Below, one piece after another: positions 3,508 to 61,320 of a DNA stretch of 64,000 nucleotides. The notes beneath the pieces were generated by a model. The model was not told where the DNA came from. It saw only the letters and a program-made list of their open reading frames with translations, and ran no database searches. Both the position numbers and the translations under genes were made by a program. Origin of the DNA: Candidatus Petromonas tenebris (GTDB lineage Bacteria; Bacillota; Clostridia; Peptostreptococcales; Caminicellaceae). The stretch lies in NCBI GenBank assembly GCA_014236755.1, contig JACCKY010000017.1, positions 1 through 64,000 on the forward strand, given 5' to 3'. Every line of letters begins with the position of its first letter. Positions within the stretch are counted from its first letter, which is position 1.

Positions 3508-3790
3508 GTGGTTCGCCCAGCATGGGCGACAACTTGGTGGTAAAAGGGGCTGGCCGTGCTAACCACTAGCCAAAGGCAAGGGTGTCCACCGTGAGGTGGA
3601 ATCTGAAGGAAGCCGGAGGCAAAATCCTGTTCCGAGGTATATGAATCACATTCGAGGCTATATAAACTGGGTGAGTTTGCTAAACAAAACAAAGCCCAAA
3701 ACGGTTCGAGGGTTTATATAGTAAATGTGGCGGATATATGGGAGGAAAGTGGTTACGCTTACACCGAGAGGTCTCAAGGATACGTTATTA
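3508..3790 (+). mobile_element. Group IIC intron, 5' fragment (ribozyme domain I and following)
   Basis: The sequence starts with GTGG and keeps several blocks typical of group IIC domain I as in the Oceanobacillus iheyensis intron: GCAAGGGTGTCC, GGAATCTGAAGGAAGC, GAGGCTATA, GAGTTTGCTAAACAAAACAA and a GAGAGGTCTC block near 3770. No reverse transcriptase, domain V or domain VI follows; instead a promoter and a truncated acyl-CoA dehydrogenase gene begin. The element sits directly behind the res terminator, as expected for IIC introns. It is a dead remnant, and the right-hand junction probably marks a deletion. The right boundary is approximate. Confidence 0.85.
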
Positions 3791-12138: not shown

Positions 12139-12182
12139 ATTGTGAGTGTGTGAAGTGAAAAACCTCGGCTTTAATTAAAAAA

Positions 12183-12285
12183 TATTAGAGGTGAAAACAG
12201 CTCTTCAAAGTCGCTTCAGAGGAAACATTGAAGGATATCTTAAAACTATACTGTTAGAATAACTAGCATAAGAGGTTAATTTATA
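12183..12285 (+). repeat. Palindromic repeat family B, copy B1 (right arm only)
   Basis: This copy keeps the right half of family B: the AACAGCTCTTC arm, the segment with TCGCTTCAGAGG, the ATTGAAGGATAT arm and the end AACTAGCATAAGAGGTTAA. The left arm is missing. It ends 28 bases before the SDR gene, inside the operon driven by the sigma-54 promoter. Confidence 0.85.
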
Positions 12286-12312
12286 TATGAAATAAAAAGA
12301 GGAGGATTTAAT

Positions 12313-14331: not shown

Positions 14332-14604
14332 TATAGTAAAGGAACTCAAACATTTTTTGAAAAAAATTGCAGGTATAAAACAAAGTAAATTCAAGGCATG
14401 CAAGAAATTACAAATTTTTACCAGTTAAATATTAAAAAGGCTAACAGCTAACTGCTGACCGCTCATGGCAAAAAGGTGACGGGCTGCAAGAAAGACCCTA
14501 AAGAACGACTAGGATTTGCCAAGAGCCAAGAGCTAAGAACTAAGAGCTAATCAGGGCTACCAACTACGAACTACTAACTACGAACTAACAAAGCGTCGCT
14601 AGAC
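14332..14604 (+). repeat. Dispersed repeat family A, copy A1
   Basis: About 270 bases, closely matching 30579-30865 and 48592-48828. It starts TATAGTAAAGGAACTC and carries CTAACAGCTAACTGCTGACC, GACCCTAAAGAACGACTAGG and a stretch built from GAGCTAA/GAACTAA and CTACGAACTA units. Other copies end in a GCGTC-loop-GACGC hairpin with a T run. This copy stops inside that hairpin, at GCGTCGCTAGAC, and passes directly into the regulator coding frame. No gene of its own was seen in it. Confidence 0.9.
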
Positions 14605-17268: not shown

Positions 17269-17304
17269 CATTCATCGGATAAAATACCTAATACGAAAAT
17301 TTTA

Positions 17305-17487
17305 ATTTAACTTTCCTCGCTAGTTCCTTATAGATATCCTTCAATAATTCTCTTCAGGCTCCGTAGAAGAGCTGTTTTAATAGAAAAGATTTAGAGGTAA
17401 AACACCTCTTCAAAGTCGCTTCAGAGGAAACATTGAAGGATATTTAAAGCTATACTGTTAGAGTAACTAGCACAAGGAGTTAATTTA
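17305..17487 (+). repeat. Palindromic repeat family B, copy B2
   Basis: A full-length 183-base copy. The left end TTTAACTTTCCTCGCTAGTT mirrors the right end AACTAGCACAAGGAGTTAA. GATATCCTTCAAT pairs with ATTGAAGGATAT, and GAAGAGCTGTTTT pairs with AAAACACCTCTTC around the centre. The pflB promoter lies 40 bases downstream, so this copy is probably outside the pfl transcript. Confidence 0.9.
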
Positions 17488-22075: not shown

Positions 22076-22226
22076 TAACTTAACTTGCCTCGCTAGTTCC
22101 TTATAAATATCCTTCAATAATCCTCTTCAGGCTCCGTAGAAGAGCTGTTTTAATAGAAAAGATTTAGAGGTAAAAACAGCTCTTCAAAGTCGCTTCAGAG
22201 GAAACATTGAAGGATATTTAAAGCTT
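22076..22226 (+). repeat. Palindromic repeat family B, copy B3 (right end lost)
   Basis: The left end TTAACTTGCCTCGCTAGTT, the centre GAAGAGCTGTTTT/AAAACAGCTCTTC and the ATTGAAGGATAT arm are present. After TTTAAAGCTTCAAC the copy diverges, so the right terminal arm is missing. It lies about 205 bases upstream of the MATE gene. A TATAAT at 22303-22308 between them suggests a separate promoter. Confidence 0.88.
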
Positions 22227-27930: not shown

Positions 27931-28040
27931 AATTTAGTAGGAGTTTTTTATCTCCTACTAAATCATTGTGAAACTTTATCTAACTTCCTTACTCTATCTC
28001 CCACTTCTAGAAGTGGGAGTATTATAATCAGGTGAGATAA
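27931..28040 (+). repeat. Two-hairpin repeat family C, copy C1
   Basis: About 108 bases with two palindromes: AATTTAGTAGGAG/CTCCTACTAAAT around a T-rich loop, and CTCCCACTT-CTAG-AAGTGGGAG. The spacer reads CTTTATCTAACTTCCTTACT. A copy in the opposite orientation lies at 46067-46172. Here the first hairpin follows the 99-residue protein gene directly and could serve as its terminator. Confidence 0.9.
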
Positions 28041-28045
28041 ATAAA

Positions 28046-30578: not shown

Positions 30579-30865
30579 ATAGTAAAGGAACTCCAACATT
30601 AAAAAAAAAATTGCAGGTATAAAACAAAGTAAATTCAAGTGATGCAAGAAATTGCAAATTTTTACCAGTTAAATGTTAAAAAGGCTGACAGCTAACTGCT
30701 GACCGCTCATGGCAAAAAGGTGACAGGTGACGGGCTACAGGAAAGACCCTAAAGAACGACTAGGATTTTCCAAGAGCTAAGAGCTAAGAACTAAGAACTA
30801 ATCAGGGCTACCAACTACGAACTACTAACTACGAACTAACAAAGCGTCGCTAGACGCTTTTGTTC
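30579..30865 (+). repeat. Dispersed repeat family A, copy A2
   Basis: The most complete copy, 287 bases from TATAGTAAAGGAACTC to the hairpin AAAGCGTC-GCTA-GACGCTTTTG at 30841-30861. An extra AGGTGAC unit compared with A1 shows expansion of short direct repeats. It begins straight after the upstream gene's terminator, like A1. It fills most of the 389-base gap before the HEPN gene. Confidence 0.9.
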
Positions 30866-30894
30866 TGACATAACAGCTGATATCGTAATATAAT
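30865..30894 (+). promoter_or_regulatory. Promoter for the orphan HEPN gene
   Basis: CTGACA at 30865-30870 and TATAAT at 30889-30894 are spaced by 18 bases. They begin exactly where the terminator hairpin of repeat A2 ends. This suggests the HEPN gene is a separate, live transcription unit. Confidence 0.6.
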
Positions 30895-30933
30895 AATATA
30901 GACCCTATATTTGCTGAAAGGAATGATCTGAGA

Positions 30934-44620: not shown

Positions 44621-44768
44621 AATAATATAAAAAGGAGATTTCATAGCATACTGGTAAAAACTATATTAATTTGACACAGTTACTTAACAACATTTATTTG
44701 TTAAATAATTTTAAGAAATTAAAAAAGGAAAATATTTTTTTTTGTAGTATACTTAACAATACGGAAGT

Positions 44769-44953
44769 AATTTAACTTGCCTCGCTAGTTCCTTATAGAT
44801 ATCCTTCAATAATCCTCTTCAGGCTTCGTAGAAGAGCTGTTTTAATAGAAAGGATTTAGAGGTAAAATAGCTCTTCAAAGTCGCTTCAGAGGAAACATTG
44901 AAGGATATTTAAAGCTATACTGTTAGAATAGCTAGCATAAGAGGTTAATTTAA
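44769..44953 (+). repeat. Palindromic repeat family B, copy B4
   Basis: A full copy of about 185 bases. TTTAACTTGCCTCGCTAGTT and GCTAGCATAAGAGGTTAA are the ends, ATATCCTTCAAT/ATTGAAGGATAT forms a perfect 12-base stem, and GAAGAGCTGTTTT/AAAATAGCTCTTC is the inner stem. The copy ends 37 bases before tdh. Apart from it, the 420-base gap holds only the terminator and AT-rich sequence. Confidence 0.92.
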
Positions 44954-46039: not shown

Positions 46040-46066
46040 ATAATTAAATAAGAAAACGCATACATC

Positions 46067-46172
46067 TATCTCACTTGATTATAGTACTCCCACTTGTACA
46101 AGTGGGATATAGAGTAAGGAAGTAAGATAAAGTCTCACAACAATTTAGTAGGAGATAAAAAACTCCTATTAA
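46067..46172 (-). repeat. Two-hairpin repeat family C, copy C2 (inverted relative to C1)
   Basis: Read on the minus strand this matches C1 along about 106 bases: the AGTAGGAG/CTCCTA hairpin, the spacer ACTTTATCTTACTTCCTTACT and the CCCACTT-GTAC-AAGTGGG hairpin. It lies between tdh and kbl and could affect how much kbl message is read through from tdh. Confidence 0.9.
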
Positions 46173-46273
46173 TTTATATTAGACTTTAAGTGTAAATTTA
46201 TATTAAAATTGATTTAAGGGAAGATAGATGATTGAATTCTTAACCTTAATACTTAATAGAAAGAGGGTTTTGC

Positions 46274-47517: not shown

Positions 47518-48589
47518 GTGTCCAGCGAAGCTGTCATTCGCTAGTTGGTGAAAGTCCAACCCAAGTAATTGTCAAGAAGCTTGGTAGCTATAAGACTAAT
47601 TATAGGCGAGAGCCTGTGGTTAAAGCGTCTTGAAAATGCGTCTATTATGATGCTAGCAAATATACAGACCGTAACGTTAAGTGAATTCTGCAGCACTGTT
47701 AGAAAGCTCATGATTGAGAGAAGAGATACTGACGAGCCTTTAGGCATAGGGCGAAGTCCGATGGAAACTTAATTGGAACTTGGAGCATTGTACGAAAGTG
47801 GCTTAAAGCAGGGGTTATGAAAGATGGTGTGTTTGCTGAGAGTGATATAGGGAGCCCGCAGGGCGGTGTAATATCTCCATTACTTGCAAATATCTATTTA
47901 GATTACTTAGATACAGTGTGGGAAAAGTATTATAGGCACTTAGGTAAATTAATTAGATTTGCCGATGACTTTGTAGTTGTTTGCAAGAACTATAAAGACG
48001 TTAAGCATGCGCATAAAGCTATAAGTCTTATAATGCAACGATTAGAATTAAGTCTAAATAAGGATAAAACTAAAATTATTTCATTATGGGATGGAAAAGA
48101 AGGCTTTGATTTTCTTGGATATCATAATAGAAAGATTAAAACAAAGACTATAGACGGTAGAATCTACTATGTACTAAAACAATGGATTAGTAAGAAAGCA
48201 ATAAAGAAGGTATTTAACAAGGTTAAGGAAACTCTAGGTAGGAAAACCCTATATGTATCCCTTGATGAAATAATCAAAATACTAAATCGTAAGATTGTAG
48301 GGTGGAGAAATTACTATGGCTTATCGCCATTTGATAAATTAGCAAAGGTTGATAAGTATATAAGAATGCGATTAGTATTCTGGTATAACAACAAAAGACA
48401 AGCACGAAAGAGAAAAGAGTTCTATAACCTAGTATCTTTCTTTAATAACACTGGCTTAAAATATGTTGCTCAAAACTCGTAATGCAGATGGAAGAAGGAC
48501 ATCGGAAAGCCGTATGAGGGAAAACTTCACGTACGGTTTGATGAGGAGATGGTGGAAGAGAATAAATCAAATCCACCATTTTACTCTAC
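47518..48589 (+). mobile_element. Group II intron with internal deletion
   Basis: The 5' end GTGTCC and the region to about 47760 look like ribozyme domain I onward. The 3' end has a clear domain V hairpin (AGCCGTATGAGGG-loop-CTTCACGTACGGTTT, 48504-48540). A domain VI stem GGTGG/CCACC is followed by TTACTCTAC. Between lies only the C-terminal half of the reverse transcriptase. Its 5' sequence differs from the IIC fragment at 3508, so it belongs to another class. It cannot move by itself. Confidence 0.85.
47760..48482 (+). pseudogene. ltrA: Group II intron reverse transcriptase/maturase, N-terminal half deleted
   Basis: The frame starts making sense at GNLIGTWSIVRKWLKAGVM and continues with SPQGGVISPLLANIYLDYLD, the catalytic FADD box in LIRFADDFVVVCKN, and the maturase (X) part WRNYYGLSPFDKLAKVDKYI. 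The first fingers/palm motifs (RT-0 to RT-3) are absent, and ribozyme sequence is joined directly to the remaining part. No HNH endonuclease tail is present. The first ATG is at 47817, without a clear ribosome site. The protein is very unlikely to be active as a polymerase. Confidence 0.88.
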
Positions 48590-48591
48590 AG

Positions 48592-48828
48592 AAGTTTAAA
48601 CATTTTTTGAAAGAAATTGCAGATGTGAATATAAGTAAATTCAAGGTTTGTGAGGGATTACAAATTTTCATCAGTGAAATATTAAAAGGCTAACAGCTAA
48701 CTGCTGACCGCTCATGGCAAAAAGGTGACAGGCCGCAAGAAAGACCCTAAAGAACGACTAGGATTTGCCAAGAGCCAAGAGCTAAGAACTAAGAGCTAAT
48801 CAAAAGGCGTCGTCAGACGCTTTTGTTC
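48592..48828 (+). repeat. Dispersed repeat family A, copy A3
   Basis: It matches A1 and A2 from AAACATTTTTTGAAA through CTAACAGCTAACTGCTGACC and the GAGCTAAGAACTAAGAGCTAA units to the hairpin GGCGTC-GTCA-GACGCTTTT. The CTACGAACTACTAACTACGA block is missing, and its first bases are replaced by the end of the group II intron. The intron thus appears to have landed between a terminator and this repeat. Confidence 0.88.
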
Positions 48829-48833
48829 TTCCA

Positions 48834-48862
48834 TTGAAGCTTGTATTTTTTTATAATATAAT
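48834..48862 (+). promoter_or_regulatory. Promoter for the DUF503 gene
   Basis: TTGAAG at 48834-48839 and TATAAT at 48857-48862 are spaced by 17 bases. They lie just after the hairpin that ends repeat A3. Confidence 0.55.
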
Positions 48863-49208: not shown

Positions 49209-49271
49209 CATTTATACGTTTTATTTTCTTTTTACTTATATTTAAAATTATAAGTTGGAAAACTATAATAA

Positions 49272-49478
49272 TCTAACTTTAACTCGCCTTGTTAGTTTTT
49301 CATAATAGCTGCCTATAAGGATCTACTTCGGACTCCCATGAAGGCCTGTTTTTCTTTTCGATTAAAACATTAAGCTAAAAGAACAGATCTTCAAATTCGC
49401 CTGATCAGAAACCTTATAGGCAGCTTAGACAGCTTAGCTTATTTTAACAAGAACAGCTAACACAATAGGTAACTTTAG
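49272..49478 (+). repeat. Palindromic repeat family B, diverged copy B5
   Basis: It has the same layout as B2 and B4 but mostly different bases. The ends are TAACTTTAACTCGCCTTGTTAGTT and AACAGCTAACACAATAGGTAAC. The main stem is AGCTGCCTATAAGG/CCTTATAGGCAGCT (14 perfect pairs), and the inner stem GAAGGCCTGTT/AACAGATCTTC. The TCTTCAAA-TTCGC segment is shared with the others. It ends 22 bases before nth. Confidence 0.8.
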
Positions 49479-56879: not shown

Positions 56880-56971
56880 TACTTTGTTGCTATTGTTATA
56901 TTTATTTGATAATATATAAGTAAATAATTTCATAGGTGAATTGATGTAACACAACTTAATAATATAGCAAT

Positions 56972-57130
56972 AATTAGGTGTCGCAAGACTTAAAAGGGAA
57001 GACGGTGAAAATCCGTCACAGCCCCCGCTACTGTAAGCGAGGATGAAACCGGAGCATGCCACTTAAGCAATTTTGCCTAGGGAAGGTGCCGGGAGTAAGT
57101 TGATTCGCAAGTCAGGAGACCTGCCTGATT
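56972..57130 (+). ncRNA. Cobalamin riboswitch
   Basis: All main landmarks of the B12 aptamer are present: GGTGTCGCAAGACTTAAAAGGGAA, GGTGAAAATCCGTCACAG, CCCCCGCTACTGTAAGCG, GGATGAAACCGGAGCATGCCACTT (the B12 box) and GCCGGGAGTAAG with GTCAGGAGACCTGCC. It lies between cobC and cbiA and controls the second cobalamin operon. The expression platform extends to the terminator at 57184-57208. Confidence 0.97.
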
Positions 57131-57183
57131 AGATTGATGCTACCTTCGGAGGGAAGGGACGTACATAGATAGTGAATTTATAT

Positions 57184-61137: not shown

Positions 61138-61210
61138 TCTCTTTAGAAAGGTGAGAAGTTACATGTGATAGCTAATAAGTAACAGGAGGTAGGAGAAAGG
61201 AGATAGAAAA

Positions 61211-61320
61211 TAAGTAACGGGTGACGGGCAACAGGAAAGACCCTAAAGAATGACCTTAATTTGCCAAGAACTAAGAGCTAAGAACTAAGAACTAACAAAG
61301 CGTCGAAGACGCCTTTATTC
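61211..61320 (+). repeat. Dispersed repeat family A, copy A4 (3' half)
   Basis: It matches the other copies from GGGTGACGGGC through AAGACCCTAAAGAA, the GAGCTAAGAACTAAGAACTAA units and the end hairpin AAAGCGTC-GAA-GACGCCTTTATT. The first ~120 bases of the family are missing. It lies in the 205-base gap between cbiB and cobD, inside a metabolic operon, where its hairpin could reduce read-through. Confidence 0.85.

Follow-up and report, generated by a model that had tools for sequence, protein, structure and literature searches.

Matched changes on both stem arms of an intergenic hairpin repeat in Candidatus Petromonas tenebris, and the level at which its pairing is kept

Hairpin-forming MITE-like repeats are known from many bacteria, and to our knowledge the selection on their pairing, together with the level at which it acts, is usually asserted rather than tested. 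The question is raised by the spacer upstream of nth in a 64,000-nucleotide stretch of the Candidatus Petromonas tenebris genome (contig JACCKY010000017.1, positions 1 to 64,000; hereafter the window), which carries the repeat B5. A sequence-only reading of the window had noticed that the main stem of B5 differs on both arms from that of the repeats B2 to B4 and is again perfectly paired, and had taken this as a sign of selection on base-pairing, as in a functional RNA or a hairpin-dependent mobile element. Is the pairing selected, and if so, in which molecule and at which stage?

B5 is a complete MITE-like hairpin element of the B5-type subfamily (49282-49469, forward strand, as for all parts and copies located below), with the exact 8-bp direct repeat TAACTTTA on both flanks (49274-49281 and 49470-49477), of which the left one is backed as a target-site duplication by the family-wide duplication test given below. 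From the outside inwards follow the terminal inverted repeats (ACTCGCCTTGTTAGTT, 49282-49297, and AGCTAACACAATAGGT, 49455-49470), the main stem (AGCTGCCTATAAGG, 49307-49320, and CCTTATAGGCAGCT, 49412-49425), an internal loop with GAAAC on the 3' arm, the middle stem, a second internal loop, the inner stem (GAAGGCCTGTTTT, 49340-49352, and AGAACAGATCTTC, 49380-49392, with one mismatch plus G-U pairs) and the terminal loop. Across genera, conservation along the 3' arm is highest at 49394-49412 (AATTCGCCTGATCAGAAAC), which includes the second internal loop, the 3' arm of the middle stem and the GAAAC loop. Complementarity of the main-stem arms is perfect, while the middle and inner helices hold a few mismatches, as in a somewhat diverged copy. 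B5 sits between a gene which we take, from its sequence, to be DUF503-like and nth, endonuclease III by Pfam; it lies 30 bp upstream of the nth ATG (49500), directly 5' of the ribosome-binding site AGAGAGG, and a promoter-like site (49241-49269) stands upstream of it.

The other copies in the window are all B4-type: B1 (12170-12288) is without the left main-stem arm and left end, B2 (17303-17487) and the reference copy B4 (44768-44952) are given with their TAATTTA duplications, and B3 (22076-22222) is truncated at the right end. As the earlier reading had stated, B2 to B4 share the succession of stems and loops of B5, with main-stem arms ATATCCTTCAAT/ATTGAAGGATAT (B2, 17334-17345/17432-17443; B3, 22107-22118/22206-22217; B4, 44799-44810/44897-44908) in place of those of B5.

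The 2.94-Mb genome (an assembly of 120 contigs) gave at least 40 scored candidates with B4 as query and 97 copies of a 24-base half-motif common to B4 and B5, against none for the reversed-pattern control, and the family is shown to comprise more than 100 intergenic copies. These are non-coding and about 115-190 bp long; the majority belong to the B4-type, around a dozen to the B5-type (72-80% alike over long matches), and a third subfamily, B6-type, was recovered by the covariance model. None of the 76 copies with enough flank lay inside an ORF; relative to same-strand neighbours, 32 were oriented the same way and 15 the opposite way (binomial test, p about 0.02), and further copies stand in convergent (9) and divergent (8) spacers. 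Three copies are chimeras with broken stems, L034 and L041 joining a B5-type left arm to a B4-type right arm and L058 the reverse; a comparable hybrid of two subtypes was seen in another genus (L169 of genome G002). Short 115-bp B4-type elements (L033 at 1191 and 1640, L074, L091, L092) have no inner hairpin, the deletion spanning between two CCTCTTCA/CTTCAAAG repeats.

The ends of the element bear the marks of transposition. The imperfect terminal inverted repeats ACTYGCCTYGCTAGTT/ACCTCTTGTGCTAGTT gave 206 matches versus 7 in the control. The target duplication is palindromic and of 7-8 bp; its 7-bp form TAANTTA is exact in 24 of 62 copies versus 6.35 expected, a level reached by none of 20,000 partner shuffles, and its free centre base matched in 39 of these copies versus 20.4 expected. 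A look at related genomes for an orthologous insertion, as had been proposed, found the site empty in all four other genera of the family (G001-G004), in which the DUF503-nth order is kept, the spacer is short and the B5 element is absent; no covariance-model match was found in these spacers (best E 0.57). One B6-type element carries a B4-type copy (L062) in its loop, at TAAATTA, and the empty TAAATTA target is visible in intact B6-type copies such as L202. The notion of a hairpin-dependent mobile element thus fits, because terminal inverted repeats, target duplications and empty orthologous sites are all present, and we regard B1 to B5, with a moderate confidence that applies to the whole explanation developed below, as copies of a non-autonomous MITE-like DNA element.

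Two kinds of ends occur. GCTAGTT-type terminal repeats are carried by B4-type, B5-type and G001 copies, and TATAGAT...ATCTATA ends, which a 2-bp TA duplication would fit, by B6-type, G002 and G004 copies; the occurrence of one core with both kinds of ends is what is most unusual about the family. Among the listed lone ends and DDE_Tnp_1 loci, no autonomous element or transposase with B-family ends was found, and an IS982 profile search gave weak matches. As candidate partners, the complete transposase L148 was rejected on its different ends (TTGTTGAATAA), and an apparent TATAGAT-ended IS (L224) was found to sit inside genes.

Comparison of the subfamilies indicates clearly that the stem change of B5 is real covariation. 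In a MAFFT alignment the main-stem arms of B4-type and B5-type copies are gap-free, except for an extra base in one B5-type copy (L040). Between the subfamily consensuses, 6 of the 13 main-stem pairs are the same, 7 differ and none is broken; six of the differing pairs are altered on both arms and one is changed from A-T to G-T, and the middle stem adds 2 further two-sided differences. The main stem was therefore not exchanged as one block, and its arms changed jointly and repeatedly. For 20 sequences, 74 cells were altered on both sides versus 32.2 +/- 4.5 after shuffling, and with one arm shifted by 1-3 columns, pairing, which is 91% in register, did not exceed about 50%.

The same three-helix core, with diverged sequence, was identified in G001, G002 and G004: main stem, AA/AAC loop with GAAAC, middle stem, GCTC/AAANTCGCT loop and inner stem. 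With covariance model R1, 32 copies came to light in G002 and 4 in G004. Model R2, trained solely on the G002 and G004 copies, recovers copies in the Ca. P. tenebris genome and in G001, so that the core occurs in every genus of the family but G003, four out of five; within the window it scores B5 at E = 1.9e-8 and B2 to B4 at 8e-13 to 8.5e-16. Asymmetric internal loops are retained in 5 of 6 lineages, and in G001 the first loop, GAAAC, is now fully paired. Taking the six lineages together with weak sequences from genus g103 of another family, two-sided change was observed at 24 of 31 pairs (144 cells versus 45.7 +/- 6.1), and G002 and G004 alone gave 10 two-sided pairs versus 2.7 +/- 1.2, a number reached in none of 500 shuffles. 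When 33 copies of four lineages are placed on a tree, paired co-changes fall on 15 branches and involve 12 pairs, whereas the null, with the number of changes per column held, averages 2.15 (sd 1.5, at most 10 in 1000); this test presumes tree-like descent of copies, which the chimeras violate, and the inner-helix rows of G002 were shifted by hand by one column, the main stem being unaffected. Alignment A4, which was model-fitted and mixes both strands of each palindrome, was left out. The sequence-only reading had asked for a covariance model and a test of covariation; covariation between subfamilies and genera is supported as significant by three controls.

Searches further afield gave little. 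A sequence-pattern search of 97 relatives yielded nothing convincing, its two matches both lying inside apparent coding sequence and being no elements; a pattern scan across 84,980 species gave two matches. No family member was found in the plasmids and phages searched, and a class-wide covariance search, in a sample without the other genera of the family, gave none outside the Ca. P. tenebris genome. The g103 genomes G194 and G235 hold weak R2 matches (E 4e-7 and 4e-6) that we do not count as members; loci L184, L185, L190 and L191 of these two genomes (E 4e-7 to 5e-4) differ in stems and ends, have a similar AAAAGGCGTTCAAAA stretch and are possibly a distant relative of the B family.

A different result was obtained within subfamilies. 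The 63 B4-type copies carry 196 stem-position changes, 96 on the left and 100 on the right; 6 double changes were counted versus 4.9 expected under independent mutation of the arms, and 184 single-arm changes remain uncorrected. Stem changes are thus paired beyond chance between subfamilies and genera and not within the recent B4-type burst, in which the arms of single copies are shown to decay independently; individual insertions are therefore not under selection to fold. Among 9 B5-type copies the excess of double changes is slight (7 cells versus 3.9 +/- 1.6). Mismatches of the G-U and A-C kinds are about equal in every set (23/21 in all lineages, 8/8 in G002/G004, 12/12 in B5-type and 56/45 in B4-type copies), which gives no support for selection on RNA; it weakens an RNA role without excluding it, because equal transcription of the two strands would also equalise the counts. 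Of the marks of a structured RNA, helix-supporting covariation is present and tolerance of G-U over A-C is absent. Rfam, searched at gathering and permissive thresholds, has no such family; what it returned were sub-threshold hairpins resembling eukaryotic miRNAs or snoRNAs, and a single weak match to RAGATH-7. Since copies decay uncompensated, with neither a G-U excess nor an Rfam match, the claim of selection on pairing, for which the covariation is significant, is kept for the propagating lineage only: pairing would be maintained between source lineages and lost in finished insertions. The broken-stem chimeras L034, L041 and L058 agree with this; as such arm-swapped copies exist (none shown to move later), unpaired copies are able to persist.

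The reading that we favour, though it is about evenly balanced against everything else, is a MITE for whose propagation it matters that the arms are complementary as DNA. The element would be cut and pasted by a transposase provided in trans, and a lineage would multiply only while its arms stay complementary, which would explain why pairing is preserved along source copies and lost in finished insertions. While the element is mobilised or replicated, the arms would pair in DNA, as a hairpin or cruciform, rather than in a transcript. B5 is part of an older burst whose source had a different, equally well paired stem. Against it stand the absence of a located autonomous partner, the persistence of broken-stem chimeras, which also violate the assumption of the tree test, and, mildly, the orientation bias, not obviously needed by a pure DNA parasite. 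A bolder form, which we consider possible and put forward tentatively, is that the conserved hairpin core is a transferable module, present in several genera inside two sets of ends (GCTAGTT-type with TAANTTA, and TATAGAT-type), with each round of transposition either requiring or producing the complementarity of the arms; if true, folded DNA, beyond the terminal repeats, is part of the mobilisation mechanism.

Among the rivals, a minor but real chance is left to template-switch correction, in which replication errors copy one arm onto the other and the match arises without selection. Template switching is documented and yields compensatory changes (PMC8794818), equal G-U and A-C counts are what it predicts, and the fully paired GAAAC loop of G001 is what correction would leave; the asymmetric internal loops that persist in five of six lineages are not. 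Steady switching acting on all copies is too slow, because of the uncorrected single-arm changes and the chance-level doubles in the B4-type copies, an argument that leaves correction coupled to transposition unaffected. Somewhat less probable is a functional RNA, a transcribed hairpin that would be processed, stabilise mRNA or regulate the next gene, with selection on RNA pairing. The strong covariation, the partly conserved internal loops, the orientation bias and the place of B5 between promoter-like site and ribosome-binding site speak for it, and similar repeats are transcribed in Bacillus cereus (PMC3446304); the lack of compensation in the B4-type copies, the G-U counts, the empty Rfam search and the copies in convergent and divergent spacers speak against it, and this part of the sequence-only reading found no backing. 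Equally doubtful are matched binding sites, where one and the same protein would recognise each arm as double-stranded DNA and the arms would track its specificity without a hairpin. The arms are indeed inverted copies, the terminal repeats also differ between subfamilies, and G-U again equals A-C, but the match extends over a long region of three helices and more than 30 pairs, and two loop segments beside the main stem are conserved at 0.83-0.89 versus 0.53 for the stem, in few columns (taken as a whole, internal loops do not significantly exceed stems in conservation, p = 0.31). That B5 is an unrelated palindrome of chance resemblance is ruled out for practical purposes by intermediate copies, ungapped homology, conserved loops and its R2 score.

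In kind, the B family is a hairpin-forming MITE, like the reviewed prokaryotic MITEs, ERIC and bcr1-bcr3. Prokaryotic MITEs such as QMITE2 of Coxiella burnetii, reviewed in PMC10969869, are likewise short, AT-rich and intergenic, with terminal inverted repeats, 7-9 bp direct repeats and a stable stem-loop, but differ in sequence and host, and compensatory change is not discussed in that review. ERIC/IRU of enterobacteria (PMC2267715) is an intergenic repeat of about 127 bp with one predicted long stem-loop and many copies in several genera; compared by description, the B family differs in its 7-8 bp target duplication and in cores whose sequence varies between genera. In the Bacillus cereus group, bcr1-bcr3 (PMC3446304, PMC6542083) are MITE-like intergenic Firmicute repeats with secondary structure, whose copies number from tens to more than 100; their mobility is linked to a TTTAT motif (PMC6542083), whereas the ends and target of the B family are different. 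No report on the B family itself was found in a partial coverage of the literature. One family here gives both halves of the picture, strong compensation between source lineages and genera and none in finished insertions, with no G-U signature, so that "selected as RNA" becomes separable from "kept during propagation" and the latter testable. It also calls for caution: in a mobile palindrome, covariation by itself is no proof of a functional RNA.

Other features of the window were recorded alongside. A second repeat family (14360-14604, 30604-30895, 48609-48858 and 61203-61295; units of 93-165 nt, 73-88% alike) contains AAGACCCTAAAGAACGACTAGGATTTGCC, short CTAAGAGCTAAGAACTAA repeats and a AAAGCGTCG...AGACGCTTTTGTTCT hairpin, and some B-family copies (L080, L095, L041) have pieces of it fused to them. 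A group II intron, matched in D1-D4 and D5-D6, lies at 47542-48589 and looks truncated, because its reverse-transcriptase ORF (47817-48482) starts inside the RT domain; at 3585-3759 a D1-D4-3 match of 142 bits has no second intron match nearby. A 112-nt inverted repeat pair (27931-28042 and 46064-46175) is 89% complementary over a distance of 18 kb, and a Cobalamin riboswitch (126.5 bits) was identified at 56959-57142.
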